A stretch of DNA of 64,000 nucleotides from an uncultured Clostridia bacterium (GTDB lineage: Bacteria > Bacillota > Clostridia > UBA1381), in the NCBI GenBank assembly GCA_947631235.1, contig CANRKO010000013.1, forward strand, positions 1 to 64,000, read 5' to 3'. Each line of letters begins with the position of its first letter. Within the stretch, counting starts at the first letter, position 1. The position numbers and the translations under genes were made by a program. The notes under the pieces were generated by a model. That model saw nothing but the letters and a program-made list of their open reading frames with translations, was not told the origin of the DNA and ran no database searches. This document shows, one piece after another, positions 15,378 through 37,852 of the stretch.

Positions 15378-18113
15378 TCAATTCAAATATTTCGATACAG
15401 TGGTTGTAGAGCAGCCAATAGCTTTTGCTATCTCCGCAATAGTATAACCGGAAGCCTTCATCGATGCAATTTTACTGATTTTAGCGTCACTTAAAGCTGT
15501 TCTTGTTCTTGGAGTTGCTCTTTCTCTAAGCTTATCAACATCAGTGTGATTAAGTATCTGCTTTAACACATTCTCGCTGACAGCGCCCGACTGAATCGCT
15601 TCCCATTCCTTATCGGTAATGTCCACCGTTGTACGCTTAGCTCCAACAGATAGCCGAGCCTTAACCAAAGCCTGCTGACTTGCTTTCTTAATCTCACTCT
15701 TAGTCATATCCGGGTTGGTTTGCTTCTTAGCCCTTATCACGGAGTTGGCGATAACCTGTGCCTGTCTTTCACGAGGCGCATTCATTAATGCAACTTTAAG
15801 TTTGTCGTTAAGAGACGCGACTTCGTGACTGTACGTTGTTTTAGCCGAAGTGCTGTATTTGATTCTTCCTGTGTTGACCATTTCTTTACGAGCTTGATTA
15901 GCTAACGATTTCATCTTATTAGCATAATCAGCGTAAGCTCTTTCCTTAGGATTGTCCAAATCGGAGACCAAAGAATAAGCGTCATCAGTTTCAGCCATCT
16001 TCGTGCTCTTCTGAGTACGAACCTTGATGTTTCCTTTTTTATCAGTATACTTTTCATGTACTGTATTCCATATCAAAGAACCTTCTGGCTTATCAGGATT
16101 ATACCAACTCTTACCCGGTTCATTGACTTTAGGACTGCCTTTACGTTTCTCAACCTGTGTCTCCGACTTCGCACGAGAGATAAGAGTAGCCGCTCCTTCG
16201 TGGTACCGACCGTTCTCATCTACAGTACCCTGATACTTCTTCTTAAGAGCAGCTATGTTATTATCAGACTCGCTCTTCTTGTAATCGAGGTGATGCTTCT
16301 CCGCATCTATGACGACCATACTATGCTTAACCGCTCTGGCAAGCTCGTCGGGAGTGGCACCTTTCAAAGTCATATCGGTGATAAGGTTGGAAATGATACC
16401 CATTTCGGTCTGGGTATTCTTCATAACCTTCATACCTTTGCGTTCCGGGTATTCCATCTTTGGATCGAAACCTTTAAGTTCTTCAAGCGGAGGACGTGAT
16501 GTAATCTTTACCTTACTGCTGAATGGTATCACCATAACCGTATCGCCGTCAAAGTCAGCTCCCGATAAGATACTTGCCGCCTTACTATTGATACCGACAG
16601 CATCTTTACTGTTTCCTATGGTCTTTCTTGCCTCGGCATTCTTGTTCTTAACGGTGAGTATGGGGATCTCGAATGTCCCGCCATGGGGGTATCTTACAAG
16701 GGCTACCGTCTCACCCTCGTTATATGTCGGAGCATATACTTCGTTATCCTTTAACGATGTAACAGGAAGAATAACTCTGTATTTCTGTCTTGGCAGAGCT
16801 GCCGCCTGCAAATGAACAGCGGCAGAATCGCAGTCATCGGCGAATGATTTAAGTAAATTCTTCTTAATTGTCGGATTGGTCAGCGAACAAATCTCATCAA
16901 ACTCTGCCACTTTATCTGCTGCGGCAAGATTAAGCTGCTTTTTTACCAACGGCAACGGTTGTTTCGATAAGAACTGTGACGGTAAATGGTCACTCCAATC
17001 GTTCCAATCACCTTCTTCCGCACGCTTGTTAATAAGCGATAGTCTTTCGTTGCCGTCTTCATCTATGTAATAACTTTGACCGCCATGCTCTTTAATCAAT
17101 GAACCAAACGGGTTGTCGGGATCGCTGCTTATCTTCTTCAACACATCTTTAGTTGGCGTGCCGAGCTTTTTATTGGTGTTAAACATTACGTCGACGCCTT
17201 CAGGAAGGTCGTCAGAATATACAGCCATGCCTTTCAAATAGTGTGTTCCATCCACAAGTATCCTGACTTGAGCATAAAGCGAATCACCAAGCGATAAATC
17301 ATCAACACCTCTCCGAAGTTCTATAACTCCGTCTTTGTCGATGCCGCCTTCCTCGGCATAACGTATCTTAAGCCTGCTCGAATCCATACTTTCGGGATAC
17401 ACAAACGATTTCTTAAACGTTTCGCCGTCGTCATAGGAAATATAATCTTTCAAAGAATGAATGTTCTCATAGTTATAAAATTCCTTATGCTCCGTTCCCG
17501 GAGGACAGATTACTTTGATGTTTGTCTGCTTTCCGGGATTAGTAACCTGCGGAACGCCTCCGCCGTATACGGGATAACCTTCAAGCTCCAAAATATAAAG
17601 AGCCTCGTTAAGTTTTTCCTTTGATACGCCAAGCTCTCGTTCCACGCCGGTTCCGACGTCAATCATTCCTTTCTCATCAACCTGTTGTTTCAGAAATTCT
17701 GCCGTTTTTCTCGCCTGATTCATACGGGCTTCAGAATCTTCATTCAAAAGTGAACGAACAGAGGAATCGTTCTCGAACCCCATTTTCTTGGCGATTTCAT
17801 TAAGACTATATCCTTTTTCACGAAGTCCTTTAGCCTCATCAACAAGCAAGGTACGGCGTTCATCTTTTGCCAAGCTCATCTGAACTCGAAATTGAGTGGT
17901 ACTCAGTCCCATGGATTTGGCAATAGCGGTATCGCCCGTCCAAGTTTTACCTTTTTCATCAATATAACTGAAATTCTGACCTCTAAGCTCATCGACACGA
18001 GCAAGAAAATCGCCGCTGTGTTGATACGGATGCTCTCCCGAACCCCAAGGATACCGTCCCGAACGACGCTTTATACCATAATGCATCAAAATATCTTTTG
18101 CTGTTTCGTTCAC
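15378..18113 (-). CDS. single-polypeptide RNA polymerase-like protein (YonO/beta-prime barrel type)
   Basis: A 911-residue protein starting from GTG after CAGGAGGGG. Residues 519-524 are ADFDGD (Asp 520, 522, 524), the metal-binding loop of the two-barrel RNA polymerase superfamily. The upstream VRYPHGGTFEIPILTV (about 473-488) and SKAASILSGADFDGDTVMVI occupy the places of 'NRAPTLHRLGIQ' and 'YNADFDGDQM' in bacterial beta-prime. Length is close to that of SPbeta YonO. There are helix-turn-helix segments at about 95-123 (KGYSLNEIAKKMGFENDSSV) and at the C-terminus (GYTIAEIAKAIGCSTTTVSK). The N-terminus LMHYGIKRRSGRYPWGSGEH resembles the tag on head-module proteins. It may transcribe phage genes; activity is inferred. 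Confidence 0.65.
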   Translation of the reverse strand: MNETAKDILMHYGIKRRSGRYPWGSGEHPYQHSGDFLARVDELRGQNFSYIDEKGKTWTGDTAIAKSMGLSTTQFRVQMSLAKDERRTLLVDEAKGLREKGYSLNEIAKKMGFENDSSVRSLLNEDSEARMNQARKTAEFLKQQVDEKGMIDVGTGVERELGVSKEKLNEALYILELEGYPVYGGGVPQVTNPGKQTNIKVICPPGTEHKEFYNYENIHSLKDYISYDDGETFKKSFVYPESMDSSRLKIRYAEEGGIDKDGVIELRRGVDDLSLGDSLYAQVRILVDGTHYLKGMAVYSDDLPEGVDVMFNTNKKLGTPTKDVLKKISSDPDNPFGSLIKEHGGQSYYIDEDGNERLSLINKRAEEGDWNDWSDHLPSQFLSKQPLPLVKKQLNLAAADKVAEFDEICSLTNPTIKKNLLKSFADDCDSAAVHLQAAALPRQKYRVILPVTSLKDNEVYAPTYNEGETVALVRYPHGGTFEIPILTVKNKNAEARKTIGNSKDAVGINSKAASILSGADFDGDTVMVIPFSSKVKITSRPPLEELKGFDPKMEYPERKGMKVMKNTQTEMGIISNLITDMTLKGATPDELARAVKHSMVVIDAEKHHLDYKKSESDNNIAALKKKYQGTVDENGRYHEGAATLISRAKSETQVEKRKGSPKVNEPGKSWYNPDKPEGSLIWNTVHEKYTDKKGNIKVRTQKSTKMAETDDAYSLVSDLDNPKERAYADYANKMKSLANQARKEMVNTGRIKYSTSAKTTYSHEVASLNDKLKVALMNAPRERQAQVIANSVIRAKKQTNPDMTKSEIKKASQQALVKARLSVGAKRTTVDITDKEWEAIQSGAVSENVLKQILNHTDVDKLRERATPRTRTALSDAKISKIASMKASGYTIAEIAKAIGCSTTTVSKYLN

Positions 18114-18116
18114 GGC

Positions 18117-18674
18117 TTACCCCTCCTGTTCTCTGATTTTAGATATAATTTTGTCAAAGCTGATAATCTTATCAATAATCGTCATAATATCATCAGCTTC
18201 CGGAATATGGACAAGAACCTCGTCAGACTGATAAAGCCTTAACTCAATATCAATATCAGAGGGTTTGGTTTTGTACTCCAAACAAAAAAGAGCAGCATAT
18301 ATTTCAAGCTGCTCCATATGAGCCGGAGTAACTCCGGTTTTCAAATCGTGAATACGAAGTTTCCTGTCGCGGAACGAAATAGCATCCGCGGTTCCGAAAC
18401 AATTATCGGAAAAATATAATATTTGTTCCGGCGTCATTTTGTAGCCTATGGCGTCGTTCACATATAAGTTCAATGTTTTCCGAGATTTCGGAAGCTTTTG
18501 TCCGAGTCTGATACATTGAGCCGCGAACGCGTGCAGTTCCGTACCCCTTTGCGCTGCAATATAATTTGAGTATGCTTCCTTAACCTTGGATTCGCTGTAA
18601 TTAATCCAATGGTATTTACTGGCGCCGAGAAAGGCGTGCTGCCCTTCGAGAGCCAAATGCTTGTTGAAGTTCAT
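18117..18674 (-). CDS. RecB/Cas4-like PD-(D/E)XK nuclease
   Basis: A 185-residue protein. GTELHAFA supplies the conserved His, CFGTADAISF the first Asp, KLRIHDLKTG the D-x-K core, and MEQLEIYAALF the Q-x-x-x-Y motif of RecB-type nucleases. The iron-sulphur cysteines of Cas4/AddB are not seen. It probably processes DNA ends in replication or recombination. It overlaps the VRR-NUC gene by 59 bases and ends just before the RNA polymerase-like gene. Confidence 0.8.
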   Translation of the reverse strand: MNFNKHLALEGQHAFLGASKYHWINYSESKVKEAYSNYIAAQRGTELHAFAAQCIRLGQKLPKSRKTLNLYVNDAIGYKMTPEQILYFSDNCFGTADAISFRDRKLRIHDLKTGVTPAHMEQLEIYAALFCLEYKTKPSDIDIELRLYQSDEVLVHIPEADDIMTIIDKIISFDKIISKIREQEG

Positions 18675-18930
18675 TTAATACTTCCTCCTTGTTTTCGGGA
18701 CAGATAAACCGCGAGAATGACATCTTGTTCATCTTTCCGACATAATATTCTTGATTTGGTTGCTTTTTAGCTCCCGCGCTTCGTTTACATTCCAAGGATG
18801 CCCATTTATCTTTATGCAATATAAGCAAATCGGGATAACCTTGAACAGAGTCATTTTTAATAACCAAGCACTCCGGAAACAAGCTTTTGATTTCTCTAAT
18901 AAGTTTAGATTGAAAATCCCTCTCCAGCAT
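18616..18930 (-). CDS. VRR-NUC domain nuclease
   Basis: A 104-residue protein, the usual size of stand-alone phage VRR-NUC proteins. It starts MLERDFQSKLIREIKSLFPE. Key features are NDSVQGYPDLLIL (metal-binding Asp), ASLECKRSAG (the E-x-K) and PNQEYYVGKM. The family cuts branched or ss/ds DNA. The unusually long overlap with the next gene encodes a basic C-terminus (SRRAARLSRRQ). Confidence 0.85.
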   Translation of the reverse strand: MLERDFQSKLIREIKSLFPECLVIKNDSVQGYPDLLILHKDKWASLECKRSAGAKKQPNQEYYVGKMNKMSFSRFICPENKEEVLNELQQAFGSRRAARLSRRQ

Positions 18931-22692: not shown

Positions 22693-22956
22693 TCATATTG
22701 GCACACTCTGTCTGTACAGAGTATCGGGGCAAATATCTATATCGTCATTCCAATATACACACATGCGATCCAGTTTTACTTGTTTAAAAAACCCGATATT
22801 TTTCAAAGGCTCATACATAGAATATTGAAATAACGGTTTGGCGTCAAATATTCGTTGCTCACCGTTATTAAACGTAAGTAATAGTTTGAAATCGTCCGTC
22901 GGAACAACAGAAGTGGCTCTCGGTCCCAATGGTGAGCCATAAATAATTTCATCCAT
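22693..22956 (-). CDS. DUF2442 protein (second copy)
   Basis: An 87-residue protein with DFKLLLTFNNGEQRIFDAKP and DDIDICPDTLYRQSV, the standard DUF2442 pattern ('l.l.f.nGe.r.fD.kp' and 'd.cpd.ly'). It is paralogous to the next gene upstream (22,994-23,260). DUF2442 proteins typically pair with DUF4160 proteins and are predicted to be toxin-antitoxin-like. A terminator follows. Confidence 0.85.
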   Translation of the reverse strand: MDEIIYGSPLGPRATSVVPTDDFKLLLTFNNGEQRIFDAKPLFQYSMYEPLKNIGFFKQVKLDRMCVYWNDDIDICPDTLYRQSVPI

Positions 22957-22993: not shown

Positions 22994-23260
22994 TTACGCT
23001 ACCAGCACACTCTGCTCGTACAACGTATCCGGACAATAATCAATATCGTCCGCCCACATTATTGTTCCGTATTCTACTTTCATCGCCTTAAAGAAATCCC
23101 TGTCCTTCAACTTCGAAAATACCTCATACTTAAGCAAAGGTTTTGCGTCAAATTTTCTGCGTTCTCCGTTATCAAACGTGAGCGTTATTTCATAATTGTC
23201 ATTCGGAATCGCTTCTATTACGCGCGGACCGAGCGGTTCACCATAAACAAATTCATCCAT
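22994..23260 (-). CDS. DUF2442 protein (first copy)
   Basis: An 88-residue protein with YEITLTFDNGERRKFDAKPL and DDIDYCPDTLYEQSVL, about half identical to its neighbour. It lies 13 bases after the DUF4160 gene, in the usual arrangement. In this gene family the DUF2442 member is the presumed antitoxin or partner. Confidence 0.88.
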   Translation of the reverse strand: MDEFVYGEPLGPRVIEAIPNDNYEITLTFDNGERRKFDAKPLLKYEVFSKLKDRDFFKAMKVEYGTIMWADDIDYCPDTLYEQSVLVA

Positions 23261-23686: not shown

Positions 23687-24916
23687 TCACCACTTAGCAA
23701 ACCGCGCCTCGTTAAATTTCTTTTTCTCCCGAAGTGCGCGGCTTATTGCCAAATCGATTCCCGACCGCGATTTCATATGATAATAATATAAATCCTTGTA
23801 CGGCGTATTAAGCCGGTCTATTCGTCCGCTTGCCTGAACCATAACCTTATACGAATAGTTCTGCGAGTAAAATATAATTGTATCGGTCTTAATACAGTTC
23901 CACCCTTCGGCTCCAGCGTTATACTGAACAAGATAAACCCAACTTTTACTTTCGGGAACAGGCTGATGTTTATGCCCGTTCCATTCGGCTATCTCCACGT
24001 TATCGCCATAGCTCAGATTTTTGAGAATTTCCAATTCGTAATCAAAATTGTAAAATATAATTACTTTCGGATGCTTCTCAAACAGTTCAAGCAACGCCAC
24101 CTGCCGCGACTCGTCACTATTGACAATTTTACGGAGCGAATAGCAGTATTCTCCCGGTGACTCAATCGGCTTATTCTCCCATGGATTCCAGCGAGTACGA
24201 ATGATGTCTTTATACTTTGAAATATCATACCTTGTATATATGTCCTCGTGATGGGAAATAGTTTCTCTTTTGAAATCCATATTCACCAATATATTGTTAC
24301 GCAGCCGTATAAGCCGTCCGGTGTTCAAATATCTGTCAACCATAGGGAATTTGACGGTTTGTTTGTAAACCACGTGTTCGCGTATGAACTCGGTTTTGTT
24401 CTTGTAAAACCCGTTTGCAATAAACACCGGAATATAATCCATCCACGTATCTCCCGGAGTCGCTGAAAGCAGGATCCACTCGTTATTTTTGGCGATTTTC
24501 AGAAACGACTTAACCCAGACTCCGGAACCAACTACACGCTGTTCATCAAATATAAAGAATGCGTTCTTGACTTCGGCGTATTTTTTGATGTTATTCCACG
24601 AATCCACAACGACCGTGTTAGAATATAAGTTTGTTTCTTTATGGGTGGAAATAAGGAAGGGCGTAAGTTCGCCCTCCCATTCCAGCGTGTCCCTTTTCCG
24701 AGCGGTCGTTATAATATACAAATCCTGCGGGGGATCGCCCATAGGCAAATAACCGTCGTCTGCCACATAGTCAAGGTCTGCCCCGCCGTTTTTAAAAAAA
24801 TAATAAGCGAGCGCAGTCCGTGATTTTCCGCTTCCTACGCCGCCGCAAAGAATACATCCGTTTTTCATTCTTGACAGAGCATCGCTTTGATAATCGTATA
24901 ATTTTATTGCTGACAT
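23687..24916 (-). CDS. SF2 DNA helicase (DEAD/SNF2-like), phage
   Basis: A 409-residue protein starting MSAIKLYDYQSDALSRMKNG (GAGGTGGAAA in front). Walker A is CGGVGSGKSRTA, motif II is FIFDEQR, motif III is LLSATPGD, and motif VI is QASGRIDRLNT. This is the compact phage SF2 type, with an atypical DEQ in place of DEAD/DEAH. It likely acts in replication or recombination beside the polymerase cluster. Confidence 0.88.
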   Translation of the reverse strand: MSAIKLYDYQSDALSRMKNGCILCGGVGSGKSRTALAYYFFKNGGADLDYVADDGYLPMGDPPQDLYIITTARKRDTLEWEGELTPFLISTHKETNLYSNTVVVDSWNNIKKYAEVKNAFFIFDEQRVVGSGVWVKSFLKIAKNNEWILLSATPGDTWMDYIPVFIANGFYKNKTEFIREHVVYKQTVKFPMVDRYLNTGRLIRLRNNILVNMDFKRETISHHEDIYTRYDISKYKDIIRTRWNPWENKPIESPGEYCYSLRKIVNSDESRQVALLELFEKHPKVIIFYNFDYELEILKNLSYGDNVEIAEWNGHKHQPVPESKSWVYLVQYNAGAEGWNCIKTDTIIFYSQNYSYKVMVQASGRIDRLNTPYKDLYYYHMKSRSGIDLAISRALREKKKFNEARFAKW

Positions 24917-24924
24917 TTTCCACC

Positions 24925-25215
24925 TCAATATTCATAATATTCATCCTTAAATAAAATGGTTGTAACACTCCGGTCCCACTCTGTAATTATCCAGATTGTT
25001 TTTTCGCCTTTGGGGTATTTATATACTGCGAGTATTCGATTCCCATTTTTCAGTGCAATTTCATTTGTTCTCCTGTCGTCCTCGCAAGTATCACCCCAGT
25101 CGCAATTTTTATAGCGTTCAATCGATCTGTTTACAAATTCTGCGAAACTCAAATCGCTCCTTGCCAATTCGATCCCACGAGTAACAACTATACGATCTAA
25201 TTCGAATTTAGCCAT
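24925..25215 (-). CDS. conserved phage/plasmid protein, unknown function
   Basis: A 96-residue protein. The pattern IERYKNCDWGDTCEDDRRTN, then KTIWIITEWDRSVTTILF, occurs widely on mobile elements of Firmicutes, where it is sometimes annotated loosely as restriction-related. No catalytic residues are evident. It overlaps the methyltransferase-like gene by eight bases. Confidence 0.65.
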   Translation of the reverse strand: MAKFELDRIVVTRGIELARSDLSFAEFVNRSIERYKNCDWGDTCEDDRRTNEIALKNGNRILAVYKYPKGEKTIWIITEWDRSVTTILFKDEYYEY

Positions 25216-26122
25216 TTTCTTTTTCTCCTTTCGTCAATTCACCGATACTATGAAATATCCGCCTCATATGCCAAATCTTCGAGAAATACATCGGAGTAAA
25301 CCAATAGTTATCAGTCGAATCGCCGTCCGTAATAGGCTTACTCAGTGCGTCACCGACTTTGACATAACCGGCAACGCCCAAAAGAGAAATCTGAATATAG
25401 CACATCATTGCCGCGGTGAAATCTATATCTTGTCCGACAACAAGCAAATGATTCTGAAAATTCAGCTCACTATCTTTCAGCTGGTTCTTTACCTCGTTGA
25501 TTTCCGCAATAAGCATAACACCGGAGCCGCAGCATGGATCATGTACCGATATGTAACCATGCTCTTCTATTTCGCCCTCGAAATCATGAGTAACAGCCTT
25601 AGCCATAAATTCGGAAATATGATACGGAGTAAAGAATTGTCCATTACGCTTGTTACTAAACCCCAAATCCATAAAAATCGTACCAAGAAAATCCTGCTCC
25701 GGATTCTCTTCCAACGCCATAATAAGATGCGCTGCAAGCTCCGGAAACAGGATTTGCTCTTCTTTATTATACTTTTCGATAATGCTCAAATATAATTTTT
25801 CACGTTCATCATAATGAGTTTTATCCACGGAATTGGATATGGAACATGCAAGCATTGTGACAAAATCGTACCATACGCTCCAAGACTGATGATTATACGT
25901 CAGACTTTTGAATGTTTTTAAAAACTCTTTTTTATAGTCCGACGCCTTATTGCTCTTTTCAAGACGATTGTTAACGGCAGTTTTCTCCGGTTCTTTCGCT
26001 GGTTCTTTTGGAATTTCTCGCTTTGTATTTATATTCGATTGTAAATTACCGTTTGCGACCCGTTCTCTCGATTCGGTCTTATATTTTGCATTCCAATCGC
26101 GCACTTTTTTCCAAAAATTCAT
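25208..26122 (-). CDS. N6-adenine methyltransferase-like protein lacking motif IV
   Basis: A 304-residue protein. The N-terminal third is low-complexity and charged; the rest resembles HsdM-type methylases, with SNKRNGQFFTPYHISEFMAK, motif I HDPCCGSGVMLI (SAM binding), GQDID and KVGDAL. Where the catalytic (N/D)PP(Y/F) should follow, the sequence reads YWFTPMYFSKIW. It may be a non-catalytic SAM-binding or DNA-binding protein. It is co-transcribed with the helicase and the probable ssDNA-binding protein. Confidence 0.75.
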   Translation of the reverse strand: MNFWKKVRDWNAKYKTESRERVANGNLQSNINTKREIPKEPAKEPEKTAVNNRLEKSNKASDYKKEFLKTFKSLTYNHQSWSVWYDFVTMLACSISNSVDKTHYDEREKLYLSIIEKYNKEEQILFPELAAHLIMALEENPEQDFLGTIFMDLGFSNKRNGQFFTPYHISEFMAKAVTHDFEGEIEEHGYISVHDPCCGSGVMLIAEINEVKNQLKDSELNFQNHLLVVGQDIDFTAAMMCYIQISLLGVAGYVKVGDALSKPITDGDSTDNYWFTPMYFSKIWHMRRIFHSIGELTKGEKENG

Positions 26123-26143: not shown

Positions 26144-26623
26144 TTAAAATCCGAGGTCTTCGTCCGGACCTTCCAACTCGGCATACTTACCCGCAAGTTC
26201 ATCTTCCTCAATGGTCACGTAAAGGCTTTTTAAGTATGCCTTAATGCCTGTCTTGCCGTTTACTTCCCACGAATATGGGCGTATTGTCATGTCAACGCAG
26301 CGGATTTCAGCGTAGTCAAGCGATTCAACCGAATCCTCGTCGAGCAATGTCTGTCTTCCTCTGCCTGTAATCATAACGATTTTCGGCGGTCGCTTTGCAT
26401 AACTTACTGCCACTTGAATATAATGAGTCGGTTCTTCTCCATCGTCTCTGGGAGCCAGAACTCTTACATTCCAGCCGTCATCTATGAGCTGATTTGCCTT
26501 CTTTGGATCATCAATGACAACGCAGAAATTACGGTTTCCTTCGCGATTATATTGCGACGCTTTGCCCGCAAAATTCCTGAACATAATGCGGGCGTTTTCG
26601 ATTATTAAATTGTTAGTAGGCAT
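26144..26623 (-). CDS. probable phage ssDNA-binding protein
   Basis: A 159-residue protein starting [20 protein letters not shown]. It is beta-rich with an acidic C-terminus ([20 protein letters not shown]), as in ssDNA-binding proteins. It lies immediately downstream of the polymerase gene. The acidic tail and the location suggest the role; the OB fold is inferred. Confidence 0.5.
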
Positions 26624-26627
26624 AATT

Positions 26628-29600
26628 TTATTCTCCTTTTTCTTTACTGTTCAGCACAACACTTGAAATATCATGCCCGTGCTGACAGTCGGCATGAAAT
26701 TTATCTTCGTAATAATGAGGGCAATCAAAGCATGTCAAATACTTGTTGTCCCCACACGGCACTTTCGCCGCGTAGTCCTCTTTTACCTTGGGAATATAAG
26801 GATCGTTCGAAACAAACCATTCAATGTCGCCGTACTGTGAAATATCCATTACGGCATTGTCTACCATGTTATCGTAGTATGAACGGTCAATATCCGCCTC
26901 TTTCCCAAGAGTCTTGACCATTTCAGCTTCGAGCCATCTATACCCTTTTGTTCCGCCGGCGGCATAATACTTTCCGTCTTTTTCTCGCATAAGCAATCCG
27001 CCGCCGCATCCCGGCTTTATCGGACAAAACCTTCCGACTTTTCCGACAAATTTGTAGTCATGTTCGTCCTCATCCCGTAAGCCTTCGTTCATATCCAGAT
27101 ACAACGCCGTACTTACCGATTTCGTTTCACACATATCGTCAAATATAATTTCTTCGCGACTAAACAGCTTCTTAAATACATACGGAACCTGAAACTCAGT
27201 TCCTGTTGCCGTCCAGTCGCCGTCCTTATACTTTGCGATATATACGGCATCATTGACAAGGCATATACGGTCATATGTAGCCTCGTGTTCAAACGTATAT
27301 CCGTATCTCTTACCATAGGATATGACGAAGTCTATAATTTCCTGAGTCGCATCCGGAATCTTTATGGAATCGGTTTTAATATGTGCAACGGTATATCCTC
27401 GTTTTTGAACCTCGTGTTTAAGATTTATCATAAACAGCGCGCCGCGTTTAGCAACAATATTGTCTATATTCCGGCTATCTCTGAACGGATTATCAAAGCT
27501 TGCCGAAGTTAAACCGTATACCGAATTTATAGCGATTTTCAGTGCCTGTGCCAAATCTTTAGCCGTACCTTCATCGGTTAGATATTTCGCAAGTTTCCCA
27601 CCGAGCATTTTCTTTGCCTTATTGAATTCTTTATGCTTGATAGCGATACGAGCGTCTAAAATATCTTTGAATCGTTGTGTATACTCATCGCCGAATAAAT
27701 TTTCTGCGACTATGCTTGACGGATGCATGGATGCTATATCGAGCAGAGCAACATTACCGTACATACCCGGTTCGGCATAAACATAACCGCCTTCGCCGAC
27801 TTCTTCACCGCGGTAAATGGACTTTCCATGGTCGTAAACATAACCGGGAAAATAAGGCAAGAAACTTCCCGCCTCGCCATGGGTTTTTGTCATCATATCG
27901 GGGCATAACTCCGATAATACGGAATACTCATGCTCATCCAAGTCGTGTACAGGCTCAGCAAGATTGCGATAGTTAAACTGACTTTGCGGGTTTTTATTTC
28001 TCCCGAATATAATTCTCATAGTCAGTGAATTTGTGGTATCGTTCACAGTCATGCCCGCTACATCCGCCAGAATTTGTCTTGCGAGAAAATCGGACTTACG
28101 AGCATTGAATACGGCTTCGGTTGCGATTACATCATTATCGCAATATTCGGCGACTTTTATCCACATTTTTTCGGGTACAGGCTTATCCCAAGGAAGACCG
28201 AGCTCCTGATGATGTATTCCGAGCTCAATCTCGAATTTCTTCAAAGACTGTTTCTTGCTCGAAAAGTCGTAAACATCCGTATACGATACGTTATACGCCT
28301 CTCCGAAGAAACAATTTGTACTGCCGGATATGATTCTCTGAGACAGCCTGAATAACTGTTCGTTGTCGTACCCCATCATCCTTGCATACAAAATATGATT
28401 GTCATATCGACGACAGTTGAATCCGACCAGTTTAAATCTCATCAGATTTTCTATCTCTTCCGGTGTCGGATTAATCATACGGACTACCTTCTTACCTTCA
28501 CCTGCCGATTTCCAGTTCACAAGGAACAAGTTCGGAAACACCTCAACGTCGTAAAATATCAACTCCGAATCGTCTCCCGAAGATACTTCCGAAATCTCTT
28601 CCGATTTGAATTTCATTTTATTTACAAGCTTAATGCAATAATCCGATTTATTTGTGCTGTTTGCTGCAAACGACAAAACAGCGTTCCTCATATCGGTCAC
28701 ATCATAATGCAAATCACTTGCATACGCATCCTCAAGTCCCTTAAATATAAAATCCACGCTTGGCTTGGTAAAAGCGTGGTATCCTTTATTCAAGTTCTTT
28801 TTTATGAAAGTCCTGAGAGCTTTTTCACTCTTTATGCCCTCAAAATTCACCATTTTATCTTCTCCTTTCAACGGCAATCCGGAACTTATCTCGGCAACAG
28901 CCAGATTATTACATTTCGTCAGTTTACGCCTTAACGAACTGTCTCCGACCGCGACCTTGATTTCAATATGCTCATCATATATCCGCTTGAGCTTAACCGG
29001 ATCGCCGGTATAAATATAATGCAGATGTATACCTGCACCGCTTTTACTGAGCTCTGCATATGTAGCCGGAAATTTTTCGGCAGCTTTGCGATTGAGTTCA
29101 AAGTTTTTCTCTCCGTTTTCATCGGGAATATCAAAGTCAATCACTATGTGATTTTTCGGAACCTTGACATAATGAAGTTTGGTCGTGTCCAAATCCGATA
29201 ACTTTGTATCAACATTGCTCCACTTTTTTATCGGACGTTCCTTGTCGGACGCATACTGAGCCGGGCAATCGGCACACGCTTTGTCAAACTCCGAACTGCT
29301 ACAATCAAAGCTAAGCCAAGATTTTTCCGGTTCTTCCGGCACAATATTCGTGTTTGAACCGTCAAATTTGTCCGCTCTGAAACCAATATAATAGCTCCGA
29401 ACACGAGTTCCGTCGTCAAGGTTAAACCTTTCCTTATACTCATAAAAATAATTCTTCAGCTCTTCCTTGAACAAACGCTTTGAATACGGATAATTGACCT
29501 TCGCTTCTTCGTTATACTCGTTATACATCGCCCATGCCGCCTTTAGCGAAACTCCGTTATTCTTTTTGAATACATGATACGAGTCGACCACGAAGTTGTA

Positions 29601-30659
29601 GAAATCATTTGACGCGCCAAGCATTGCCACCGGAATATAATCATTATAGAAGTCCGGATCATCGTAATATACCTCGCCGCAATGATAAGCAATAGCCCCC
29701 AATTCAAAGTCAATCTGCTTAATGAGCGAATTGTATTCTTTGAAACTTAGTTTATTTCCGGTAGGAGATACGTCTATCAATCGACGTATCAATCCCGATT
29801 TCGCGTCCGTAATCTTGACAGGCTTATTCGTACCTACGAACAGGAAACATTTGAATTGATTTGAATATGTCGATTTGAACTTCTCATTAACGGTCATAAT
29901 TTCATGAGAAACCAAGCTGTTTAATCGAGTATTGTCTTCTATTCTCGACAAATCTCCATCATGCTGAATTGCCACAAGCGGATTGTTACGGAAAGACTCC
30001 AGTGCGAACGCATTATTCGATGAGCCGAGGTCTTTTGCGCTGAATACCGTATGATACCCGTCAAATAGTTTCATAATGATGTTCAGCACCGTAGATTTAC
30101 CCGTTCCGTGCGAACCGTAAAGAACCATAAATTTCTGGATTTTCTTCGAATCACCGTTCACGATACTTCCTATAGCCCATTCGATTTTATGTCGCTCTTC
30201 CGGAGAATATAATACGGACATAAGTCTGTCATAAGCATCCGTCTTACCCGGTTCAAGCGGATAAGAGAGCTTTTTACTCGCATAGTCTTGCTTACTTGTT
30301 TCCATATTGGAAAATATAATTTTCTCGTCCAGCATGTGAAAACAATCCCGCATTTGCTTTTGACAATACTTATGCCATCGATCTATCATTCCCGACTCCG
30401 CATCCCACATGTGCAGAACTCTGTAACCACTGTCAAAGCGTCGACCATTTTCGTCAGCATATTTGTCGAGTTCACGGTCTATAAGACGCAGCGCCTCCTG
30501 CTCATCGGTCGACCATAATTTGTATTCTTCAATCCATACCGCATAAAAATCTCCGCCTCTTATCATAAGATCGGCACTCTTTTTTATAATGAATTTCGGA
30601 TATATCTCTATTACTCCGTGCTTAGCCGCACGTGTTGCAATCATTAGAAAGTCAAGCAT
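26628..30659 (-). CDS. helicase-primase-DNA polymerase fusion (SF3 + PrimPol + PolB)
   Basis: The 1,343-residue protein starts at [16 protein letters not shown] (AAAGGAGAG upstream). SF3/D5-type helicase: Walker [10 protein letters not shown] 182-190, with a FVGTNKP sensor near 274. Archaeo-eukaryotic primase-like core: VIDFD 506-510 and [11 protein letters not shown] 538-548. PolB with proofreading: exo I FYDVEV 702-707, exo [12 protein letters not shown] 745-754, exo III YCDND 839-843, motif [12 protein letters not shown] 972-982, motif [10 protein letters not shown] 1041-1049, motif C HIKTDSI 1093-1099. Motif C has Lys where Asp is usual, but keeps the catalytic Asp 1097. A Cys-rich stretch ([17 protein letters not shown]) lies near the C-terminus. 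It probably supplies most replisome activities in one chain. Confidence 0.9.
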
Positions 30660-30681
30660 TACATTATTAACTCTCCTTTCC

Positions 30682-31236
30682 TTAAGATATAAGACACGTA
30701 TCAAAGTACCACATCGCCTGATACCAGATTTCAGCCGAACGCATATCTTTATCGATTCCCGGTATGCAGAAAAGTCCGCCCTTTCCGTTTCGTGCATATT
30801 TACGGTTTAAAAATTTGTCTACGATAATTGCTACTTGCTTTTCGTCATACCACTCATCGTCATAATAGTTCAAACCGAGATTGCTTATCATACTCCAGAA
30901 CCAACCGCTCGTTCTATCACCGATTTCCGGGTCATCCGCAATATCCTCTTCGCACCTGATAGCGAGCGCGATTATCATTTCTAATACGCTGCATGGTCTG
31001 TTATCTAAATATGCTGCCGCGAGCCGAGAGTCGACACCTTGCTCGTATGCAAAACGATAACGTAAATCAATCCCATCTTCTGCTCGGTTGCTGTCCATGT
31101 CCAGAATATAATTGAAATCAACACCGTGAAGGTGCGTGAACAGCTTTTTATAAGACTTCACCTGTTTCAAAGCATTGCGGATTACTTTGTCGTACATCCA
31201 TTCAAAATATCTGTTATTCAGTTCATATCGTGTCAT
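30682..31236 (-). CDS. conserved phage protein, unknown function
   Basis: A 184-residue protein, aromatic and acidic, with WSMISNLGLNYYDDEWYDEK and FLNRKYARNGKGGLFCIPGI. It is co-transcribed just ahead of the polymerase fusion, so a replication role is plausible. I do not recognise a domain. Confidence 0.6.
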   Translation of the reverse strand: MTRYELNNRYFEWMYDKVIRNALKQVKSYKKLFTHLHGVDFNYILDMDSNRAEDGIDLRYRFAYEQGVDSRLAAAYLDNRPCSVLEMIIALAIRCEEDIADDPEIGDRTSGWFWSMISNLGLNYYDDEWYDEKQVAIIVDKFLNRKYARNGKGGLFCIPGIDKDMRSAEIWYQAMWYFDTCLIS

Positions 31237-32636: not shown

Positions 32637-33536
32637 TTAGATTAAATCGTATATAATGCCGTCTACATTGAAATCGAGTATTATCGACGGTTCGTCCGCA
32701 TTGATAAAATCGTGAGCTTTTTGGTCGGAACGGTAAAGTCCGAAATCTATGAAACCGTCTCTTTCGGGATCATCCGGATCGTATATCCAACCGATCAACT
32801 GTCCCGACGATGTTTTACAAAAGCCGAGCGACTCGTATACGTCGTTCAAGAACAAGAATCCTTGTGCTCTTAGTTTATCGTTCGCCCATTGCTCCTGCTG
32901 CTTTAAAAACATAAGATTGTAGTCGGGCTTTCTCTGCCAGTTTAAGTTTGTTTCGTCGAATATCCGAGCATGCGGGCTTAGGTCGAGCCGTTTTTTTATA
33001 ACTTTTGTGTCGCCGGCATCATTTTTACTGTCAAGGCTTGAGCCGACCATTATTTCCCGTTCGACATCTTCACCGAATCGTTCTTTAACTCGCTTACGGT
33101 AAGCTTTAAAACTTCCGTCCACCGCCGCATACGCCGCTGCTATAGCCGCGTTTCGTTTTCTGAGAATATTGTTTGACGCAAGAATGCTCGTAATCGATAA
33201 TACTCCGAGAATTACGGACGGAGCATAGATTTTCGCAAGTTTCACACCCGCTTGAGTATACGTCAGAGCGAGATCCTTCTTCTTTCTGTCATCTGTATAC
33301 GGAACAAGCGAGTCACCTTCCGATACGACGTCAGATTCGTGAATGTTTTTGACCGTTTCTTTGGTATCGTCAACGACTTCGCCGATTTTTGTCGTAGCCC
33401 TGCACGCCATAACTGCGCTTACCACAACTCCCGCAACACCGGATATAATAAGTATTTCCGGGCTGTATTTCTTTATTTTAAGACCGGCTTTGCTCAATGT
33501 TCTGCCGGCTTTCACCATCAATTCTGTCTTTTTCAT
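32637..33536 (-). CDS. DUF6353-like phage membrane protein (paralog 1)
   Basis: A 299-residue protein. Two membrane segments: SPEILIISGVAGVVVSAVMA (about 25-44) and YAPSVILGVLSITSILASNN (about 104-123). The N-terminal motif KYSPEILIISGVAG and the C-terminal LNDVYESLGF with a later GWIYD match the paralogs at 35,186 and 37,064. A linker carries an extra basic region. The family is confined to phages as far as I know, and its role is unknown. Confidence 0.75.
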   Translation of the reverse strand: MKKTELMVKAGRTLSKAGLKIKKYSPEILIISGVAGVVVSAVMACRATTKIGEVVDDTKETVKNIHESDVVSEGDSLVPYTDDRKKKDLALTYTQAGVKLAKIYAPSVILGVLSITSILASNNILRKRNAAIAAAYAAVDGSFKAYRKRVKERFGEDVEREIMVGSSLDSKNDAGDTKVIKKRLDLSPHARIFDETNLNWQRKPDYNLMFLKQQEQWANDKLRAQGFLFLNDVYESLGFCKTSSGQLIGWIYDPDDPERDGFIDFGLYRSDQKAHDFINADEPSIILDFNVDGIIYDLI

Positions 33537-35185: not shown

Positions 35186-35965
35186 TCAGTACCCGCGATA
35201 GTCATAAATCGGCGCAACTTTATAGTCCACAACCAGACAAGGTCTGTTGTCCTCGGTAAGTTGAGAACTGAAATCCAAGTCGATGTAACCTTTATCAACA
35301 TTCCAGCCCAATCCGTAACCTATTTTTATTTCGCCGAGTCCTATTTCATAGTAGAAATCGTTGAGCGAAATATACATTTCGTCCCTCATACGTCGATTTA
35401 GATTGTTTTCAACACGTCTGAGTTTCTCGGCGGTTGATTTAAAATATCGTCCCGATATCGTATCATAACAGAGCGCATCCCCGTCTCCGGTGATTATGAC
35501 TTCCTTTTTGCTTACGGGATCATTCTGTATTTTCCCTTTGGCGACTGCATCGCGTATAGTCTGTTCTTTTTTCTCGCCTATAAGCTCGACCGCCTTTTCG
35601 CGGTATTCTCTTAAAGCCGTTTCAGACAGAGTATAGGCTGTAGCAAGAGCAGCATTTCTGTGTAAGTTTACCGAGCTTGCACCGATAATACAAGCAATGG
35701 ATAAACCACCCGTTATAGCTGTCGGAATATAACAAGTCCATGCCGCTTTTACTTTCTCAAACTTCGTGGTTTCGACGAAGCACTTGTCATTCTCGTCATA
35801 TGAAATTTCATCGATGCGCTCCATTGCTTTCGGCGTGGCTCGGACAGCCATTACGATTGTGGTGACCATCCCCGCTATACCCATACCGATGAGTATTTCT
35901 GGACTATGCTTTTTCAGCATAAAGCCCACATTTCTTGCAAATTTGGATAGGTTTACCTTTTTCAT
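35186..35965 (-). CDS. DUF6353-like phage membrane protein (paralog 2)
   Basis: A 259-residue protein. HSPEILIGMGIAGMVTTIVM and a second membrane segment (YIPTAITGGLSIACIIGASS) are followed by RNAALATAYTLSETALREYR, a central domain, and C-terminal SLNDFYYEIGLGEIKIGYGL then GWNVDKGYIDLDF. It lacks the charged insert of paralog 1. It overlaps the following gene by four bases. Confidence 0.8.
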   Translation of the reverse strand: MKKVNLSKFARNVGFMLKKHSPEILIGMGIAGMVTTIVMAVRATPKAMERIDEISYDENDKCFVETTKFEKVKAAWTCYIPTAITGGLSIACIIGASSVNLHRNAALATAYTLSETALREYREKAVELIGEKKEQTIRDAVAKGKIQNDPVSKKEVIITGDGDALCYDTISGRYFKSTAEKLRRVENNLNRRMRDEMYISLNDFYYEIGLGEIKIGYGLGWNVDKGYIDLDFSSQLTEDNRPCLVVDYKVAPIYDYRGY

Positions 35966-37063: not shown

Positions 37064-37852
37064 TTAATAAACATCGTCATAATCAGGTTCTGTAGCCGGA
37101 TAAAGCATTGGTGTGATGATATAACATTCTAATCCATCGTCAAGTTTTACGAATGAATTGTCAAAATCAAGCCACATTAACCCGCCTTCCATCATCTCGT
37201 CTAAATACCAGCCGATATGGTCACCGCCCATTGTCCTTTCTATTCCTAAAAAATCATAGTACTCATTTAACGGAACGTACCTATACAGTTGAAGATTTCG
37301 ATTGACATGGTATTCGGCGTTGATTACTGCGGGTAAGGTTGACGTAAAATATCTTTGTGACCAACTGTCATAAAACAGTGTTTCTTCGCTTTCTGTATCA
37401 TCTTCCCGTGAATATAATCCCGTACCATCTGCATCGACATAAACGTTTTTAGCAACCTCGGCTATAATTTTCGCATCAGAATCCTCGCCATATAACTTTT
37501 TCGTCACTTCGCGATAGTCTTTATACGATTTACTAAGCATCGTATAAGCGCCGATAAGTAAAGCATTTTGCCGTCTATTTATGGCATTGGCTCCGAATAT
37601 GCAAGCTATTGTCGCGGTTCCTGCTATCGCCGTAGGAATATAATACTTCCATGACAAGCGTACCACTTCTAATGCTGTTGGTTTTTGTGGTACCTCTTGT
37701 ACACATTTCAAAGCCTTCGGTGCGGCTCTTGCTGCCAGCACTGCCGTGACGATAACACCGACTACTCCTATACAGGTTAAAATAGTCGGTGATGCTTTTT
37801 TCAAACGTGCCAAAGACTTATAACACGTTTGATGTAGTTTTTGTTTGTTCAT
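37064..37852 (-). CDS. DUF6353-like phage membrane protein (paralog 3)
   Basis: A 262-residue protein. ASPTILTCIGVVGVIVTAVL and YIPTAIAGTATIACIFGANA are the two membrane segments; RQNALLIGAYTMLSKSYKDY follows. The C-terminal VPLNEYYDFLGIERTMGGDH then GWYLDE matches the paralogs. It is the first of the three in the transcript. Function unknown. Confidence 0.8.
   Translation of the reverse strand: MNKQKLHQTCYKSLARLKKASPTILTCIGVVGVIVTAVLAARAAPKALKCVQEVPQKPTALEVVRLSWKYYIPTAIAGTATIACIFGANAINRRQNALLIGAYTMLSKSYKDYREVTKKLYGEDSDAKIIAEVAKNVYVDADGTGLYSREDDTESEETLFYDSWSQRYFTSTLPAVINAEYHVNRNLQLYRYVPLNEYYDFLGIERTMGGDHIGWYLDEMMEGGLMWLDFDNSFVKLDDGLECYIITPMLYPATEPDYDDVY

Follow-up and report, generated by a model that had tools for sequence, protein, structure and literature searches.

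The replicase gene and its domains

The stretch of DNA analysed here, 64,000 nucleotides from an uncultured Clostridia bacterium (contig CANRKO010000013.1, positions 1 to 64,000; hereafter the window), encodes on its minus strand a single protein of 1343 residues in which helicase, primase, exonuclease and polymerase domains follow one another. We are highly confident that this protein is the replicase of a tailed prophage with double-stranded DNA, and that it is a member of the 'four-in-one' family of GP55 from Lactococcus phage 1706 and acts alike by homology. The gene and its parts are arranged as follows:

26628..30659, minus strand: replicase gene, 1343 residues (SF3 helicase, AEP primase, alpha-helical domain, exonuclease, family B polymerase)
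30671..30679, minus strand: AAAGGAGAG, preceding the ATG at 30659, with slightly long spacing
29781..30122, minus strand: SF3 helicase core (DUF5906), residues 180-293, with Walker A at 182-190 including Lys188
28860..29297, minus strand: AEP primase domain, residues about 455-600, with VIDFD at 506-510, His545 and Glu566
28620..28826, minus strand: four-helix domain (the alpha-helical domain, aHD, of GP55), residues about 612-680
28050..28562, minus strand: 3'-5' exonuclease domain, residues about 700-870 (far end approximate), with Asp704 and Glu706
26790..27797, minus strand: family B polymerase domain, residues about 955-1290 (ends approximate), with Asp974 in motif A and motif C KTDS at 1095-1098
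26685..26756, minus strand: Cys-rich C-terminal tail, with Cys1302, Cys1310, Cys1313 and Cys1325

Read on the minus strand, positions 26628-30659 translate without interruption into 1343 residues and a stop, and the plus-strand reading is full of stops. An earlier, sequence-only reading of this DNA had the coordinates and the single 1343-residue chain right, and left the strand unstated. A longer, mechanically called open reading frame (ORF) starts at 30797 (1389 amino acids); since it overlaps the upstream gene, which stops at 30682, and since AAAGGAGAG, likely the ribosome-binding site of the replicase gene, stands before the ATG at 30659, we prefer the latter start. For most of the relatives among the matches listed, the alignment begins at residue 1 or 2 of this shorter form. 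The bacterium's own genome holds one replicase copy, and a full-length copy 97% identical to the window protein is present in another metagenome-assembled genome (L081).

The helicase domain matches PF19263 (DUF5906) above the Pfam cut-off (residues 180-293, E value 3.3e-14); the SF3 label follows the naming given to GP55 in the accessible text of the paper describing it (PMC12205980). Walker A is complete, and the conserved residues Asp234/236, Asn278 and Arg292/293 are candidates, assigned by eye, for Walker B, sensor 1 and the arginine finger. The features by which an AEP primase/PrimPol is recognised, a DxD motif, a histidine and a third acidic motif on an AEP fold, are all present, with SGAGIHLHY at residues 540-548. 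Four helices are predicted in the aHD region (residues 173-241 of the model), where Tyr652 and Phe664 are the counterparts of GP55 Y655 and F667, both needed for priming. The exonuclease motif FYDVEV stands at residues 702-707, and the polymerase domain combines a motif B-like pattern, K1041..N1045..Y1048 (K..N..YG), with Asp1097 in motif C. PHROG 4210 spans residues 2-1294 (E value 0) and PHROG 1252 (polymerase) residues 685-1155 (E value 2.6e-48). Every motif position in the sequence-only reading, from Walker A at 182-190 through VIDFD, SGAGIHLHY and the exonuclease motifs from 702 to polymerase motifs A, B and C, proved correct. An aHD also occurs outside a replicase: at L140:4180-5268, apart from that locus's own replicase, a 363-residue frame joins an aHD-like stretch (PHROG 4210 positions 622-708, E value 6.6e-14) to DUF3310.

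Relationship to GP55 and spread of the fused family

GP55 matches 89% of the window query at 42% identity. According to the accessible text of its 2025 report (PMC12205980), GP55 was purified and its helicase, primase, 3'-5' exonuclease and polymerase activities were all demonstrated; it is chiefly dimeric, its unwinding is UTP/dTTP-dependent, its primase lays down RNA primers with a GTP start at CCAAC as the preferred, strong site, and it copies M13 DNA de novo and displaces strands. These properties have been demonstrated for GP55 only, and the window protein would share them by analogy; in view of the 42% identity, its nucleotide preference and its priming site are possibly different.

A combination of all three domains in one protein had been called rare in the sequence-only reading, a view that the phage records do not bear out. 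When 50,697 of these were searched with tblastn, 306 matched, and in 252 of the 306 a single place held 80% or more of the query; more than 1000 homologues are reported from nr in the accessible text (PMC12205980). The phages matched include Faecalibacterium phage FP_oengus as well as Gordonia, Rhodococcus, Arthrobacter, Streptomyces, Curtobacterium and Lactococcus phages; at the weak end of the matches listed (H110-H120; for instance Listeria phage P35 and Pseudomonas phages), the similarity is confined to the exonuclease/polymerase part. As judged from the records gathered, the fusion occurs widely among Firmicutes and Actinobacteria phages. The fused replicase is neither rare nor new, and the window protein is a further member of a characterised family.

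We assembled 155 public loci, comprising 80 kept of 227 confirmed viral-contig stretches and 75 genome loci. In 141 of them an open frame covers more than 1150 query residues (in three, L034, L043 and L111, it continues past the locus end); the remaining 14 matched over a shorter length, several of them at contig ends and some of them in a broken state. These numbers bear directly on the suspicion that a frameshift or an assembly join has fused separate genes, an error that the sequence-only reading had named as a refuting condition and of which we found no sign. A split form does exist, as Listeria phage P35 encodes a PolB protein (gp33) and a primase-SF3 protein (gp34) in neighbouring genes; however, the order helicase-primase-polymerase is not the one that a join of these two would produce, the window has a single open frame, and the many copies from other genomes already refute such an artefact, to which we assign next to no probability.

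Conservation of the catalytic residues and activity of the primase

Our alignment of 150 rows (the window protein, the 141 public loci and eight named phage records) shows that the window protein keeps the residues at which a change inactivated GP55: the counterparts of GP55 K189, D509, D712, E714 and D949 are K188, D510, D704, E706 and D974 of the window protein, each present in 150 of 150 rows. D508, H545, E566, K1095 and D1097 are likewise invariant, and the aHD residues Y652 and F664 are found in 147 and 149 rows, respectively. The lysine that had been pointed out in motif C, where DTD has its first Asp, is real and no peculiarity of the window protein; as all 150 rows share it, the active GP55 among them, it is a family trait compatible with activity.

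Several observations weigh against this reading of the protein. The Pfam Prim-Pol profile scores 14.6 bits against a cut-off of 22.8, and PolB (PF00136) 19.3 bits against a cut-off of 23, both below threshold. In Foldseek, the whole primase model reached TM-scores over the query of 0.27-0.34 in the ten best rows, mostly with a large root-mean-square deviation, and the structural alignment that scored well comprised the AEP part only. Moreover, the window protein departs from the family at nine positions (55, 196, 207, 558, 570, 587, 626, 1155 and 1279), a departure being counted where at least 130 of the 150 rows agree and the window residue occurs in at most five; the primase domain accounts for three of them (Lys558, Ala570 and Ala587) and the helical domain for one (Gly626). 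With Prim-Pol below its cut-off, the primase is assigned by its motifs, its fold and its homology to GP55. Structure prediction domain by domain, suggested in the sequence-only reading and done for the primase region, upheld the AEP part by fold; the scores of the whole model are low.

The changes S558K, F570A, P587A and E626G, all at strongly conserved primase or helical positions, might indicate that the primase domain is inactive, so that a host primase or RNA polymerase would prime and the protein would act as helicase and polymerase only. We regard this as very improbable: no acidic or histidine residue of the motifs is altered, nor is either of the two aHD residues that GP55 requires, and Ala570 also occurs in L026 and L030 and is hence not confined to the window protein and its nearest relative, L081. 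None of the nine departures coincides with the mapped GP55 residues. The window protein is well conserved and very probably functional.

Probable prophage setting and a conserved gene module

Among the genes that stand next to or near the replicase gene are:

26144..26623, minus strand: phage single-stranded DNA-binding protein (SSB; PF24083, E value 3.2e-60), directly after the replicase; BLASTP relative in the 1706 locus
25208..26122, minus strand: N6 DNA methylase-like protein (PF02384, E value 7.6e-15), between SSB and helicase
23687..24928, minus strand: SF2-type helicase; BLASTP relative in the 1706 locus
18616..18930, minus strand: endonuclease-like protein (PHROG 93); BLASTP relative in the 1706 locus
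18117..18674, minus strand: exonuclease-like protein (PHROG 3953); BLASTP relative in the 1706 locus

In the 109 public loci that extend 5 kb or more downstream of the replicase, same-strand relatives within that stretch (BLASTP, E value 1e-4) were found for the SSB in 108, for the SF2 helicase in 105 and for the methylase-like protein in 36. The SSB and the SF2 helicase belong to the same conserved module as the replicase. The sequence-only reading had an SSB-like protein and an adjacent SF2 helicase beside the replicase: the SSB gene does adjoin it, and the helicase gene starts at a distance of 1.7 kb, with the SSB gene and two others, the methylase-like gene and one small gene, in between. 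The 1706 locus holds relatives of the SSB, SF2 helicase, endonuclease-like, exonuclease-like and RNA-polymerase-like genes and of a membrane-type protein. In the accessible text (PMC12205980), GP66 of phage 1706 is called a single-stranded binding protein, and GP67, probably the relative of the SF2 helicase of the window, is said to resemble RNA helicases.

The window also encodes a terminase, a portal protein, a head protease and a major tail protein, and its G+C content climbs from 0.37-0.47 to 0.47-0.57 past 44 kb. Together, the phage structural genes and the rise in G+C suggest a prophage with host DNA as its right flank.

Three further observations concern this region. At 15378-18113, a 911-residue protein matches PHROG 4291 ('RNA-dependent RNA polymerase', E value 0) and possesses a DFDGD motif and a C-terminal helix-turn-helix; it has a relative in the 1706 locus, where gp75 carries the same name, and we presume that it is possibly a single-chain RNA polymerase of the YonO type. 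Two adjoining short genes at 22693-22956 and 22994-23260, whose products are 54% identical over 85 residues, are apparently a tandem duplication. Three paralogous membrane-type proteins (32637-33536, 35186-35965 and 37064-37852) show mutual identities of 29-32%, and the first has relatives in the locus of Rhodococcus phage Pepy6 (39%) and in the 1706 locus (24%).

These data lend themselves to a model by homology to GP55. The SF3 domain would unwind DNA and dimerise the protein, the AEP and helical domains would lay short RNA primers, the family B domain would extend them with 3'-5' proofreading, and the phage SSB would coat the single strand. The three-domain fusion and the nearly self-contained system envisaged in the sequence-only reading are supported in this way; as to the SF2 helicase, it is a member of the conserved module, but its GP67 counterpart resembles RNA helicases (PMC12205980, accessible text).

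C-terminal tails in the family

The replicase of the window lacks an SSB-like acidic tip and ends in the Cys-rich tail instead, which is possibly a zinc knuckle that would bind metal. By one pattern, 42 of the 150 rows, the window protein included, carry such a tail, and none of the eight named phages does. Many relatives have replicases whose C-terminus is an acidic tip resembling the one found in bacterial SSBs, (L/I)PF, for example EEDLPF, DEEYLPF or DEEIPFN (L058, L004 and L045 among them). Under a loose rule (PF at most one residue from the end, at least two acidic residues among the seven before the last two), the tip occurs in 36 of 121 unique family tails and in 3 of 1863 control tails; under a strict rule (exact PF ending, at least one acidic residue), the numbers are 15 of 121 and 5 of 1863, and under a wider pattern 54 of 126 and 69 of 2036. 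The 1863 control tails, all unique, came from other ORFs in the same loci that had 150 or more amino acids and were not SSB homologues; as these ORFs are mechanical and many may not be genes, their tails form a lenient background. The Fisher value of 6e-43 for this enrichment does not account for relatedness and should not be read literally.

State changes were counted on one quick FastTree tree of 147 rows, made with the tail left out and without a shuffled control; gain and loss are indistinguishable in such a count. The minimum numbers are 26 for the loose tip (49 carriers), 14 for the strict tip (19) and 15 for the Cys-rich tail (42). Such frequent appearance and disappearance of the tip is as expected of a plug-in interaction motif. 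L004 and L045 carry the acidic tip and the Cys-rich tail in a row. In the bacterium's own genome, one SSB ends in SEDDLPF and a second SSB-like protein in TAVTQ; the phage SSB of the window ends in DEDLGF. A clean exchange of tips between replicase and phage SSB was not seen in 138 loci, tallied with the wider pattern for the replicase and a rule of its own for the SSB: 32 loci had a tip in both proteins, 35 in the replicase only, 24 in the SSB only and 47 in neither.

We propose tentatively, our own judgment leaning somewhat against it, that the one-protein replisome bears exchangeable C-terminal docking tails, either, in many gut-phage relatives, a copy of the SSB tip that would recruit host SSB-binding proteins or, in others and in the window protein, the Cys-rich, possible zinc knuckle. 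If functional, the SSB-like tips would illustrate the way in which a replicase that is nearly self-sufficient remains connected to its host; the tails concern the relatives more than the window protein. The words zinc, tail and SSB are absent from the accessible main text of the GP55 paper (PMC12205980). No description of the tails was found in the literature searched, and the SSB-like tips in the relatives are possibly new.

Comparison with known replication systems

To our knowledge, neither NrS-1 PrimPol nor pRN1 ORF904, which have the AEP domain fold in common with the window primase, carries a family B polymerase. NrSPol is described as holding primase and polymerase activity in one catalytic domain (PMC12205980, accessible text).

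In Listeria phage P35 (L165:3974-7798), related domains lie in two adjacent genes, gp33 and then gp34. The former is a PolB protein (PHROG 1252) with 25.6% identity over query residues 700-1099, the exonuclease/polymerase part, and its motif C reads NTDG, not KTDS; the latter combines DUF5906 with the primase-named PHROG 864, and PriCT_1 is just below its cut-off. As the polymerase gene comes first in P35 and the primase-type part precedes the helicase, whereas the window protein has the order helicase-primase-polymerase, we infer that the fused form is no simple join of the P35 arrangement.

The 'helicase/polymerase' of FP_oengus and the 'DNA primase/polymerase' genes of actinobacteriophages are homologues that in the rows listed cover about 95% of the query at 46-62% identity; they come from other hosts, and the five that were aligned (L158, L161-L164) all lack the Cys-rich tail.

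GP55 shares with the window protein the order of helicase, PriS-like domain, aHD and PolB in one chain, as seen in the full-length alignment, the same catalytic residues and the same KTDS motif C, and the 1706 locus has relatives of the SSB, SF2 and nuclease genes that neighbour the window replicase. It differs in its length (1317 versus 1343 residues) and, by the pattern used, in having no Cys-rich tail, and its locus has no BLASTP relative of the methylase-like gene next to the SSB gene of the window. A whole replication-fork machinery in a single chain makes an appealing minimal replisome, a case already made with GP55 in 2025; the window protein contributes a divergent version, from a gut-type bacterium, in which the working residues are conserved.
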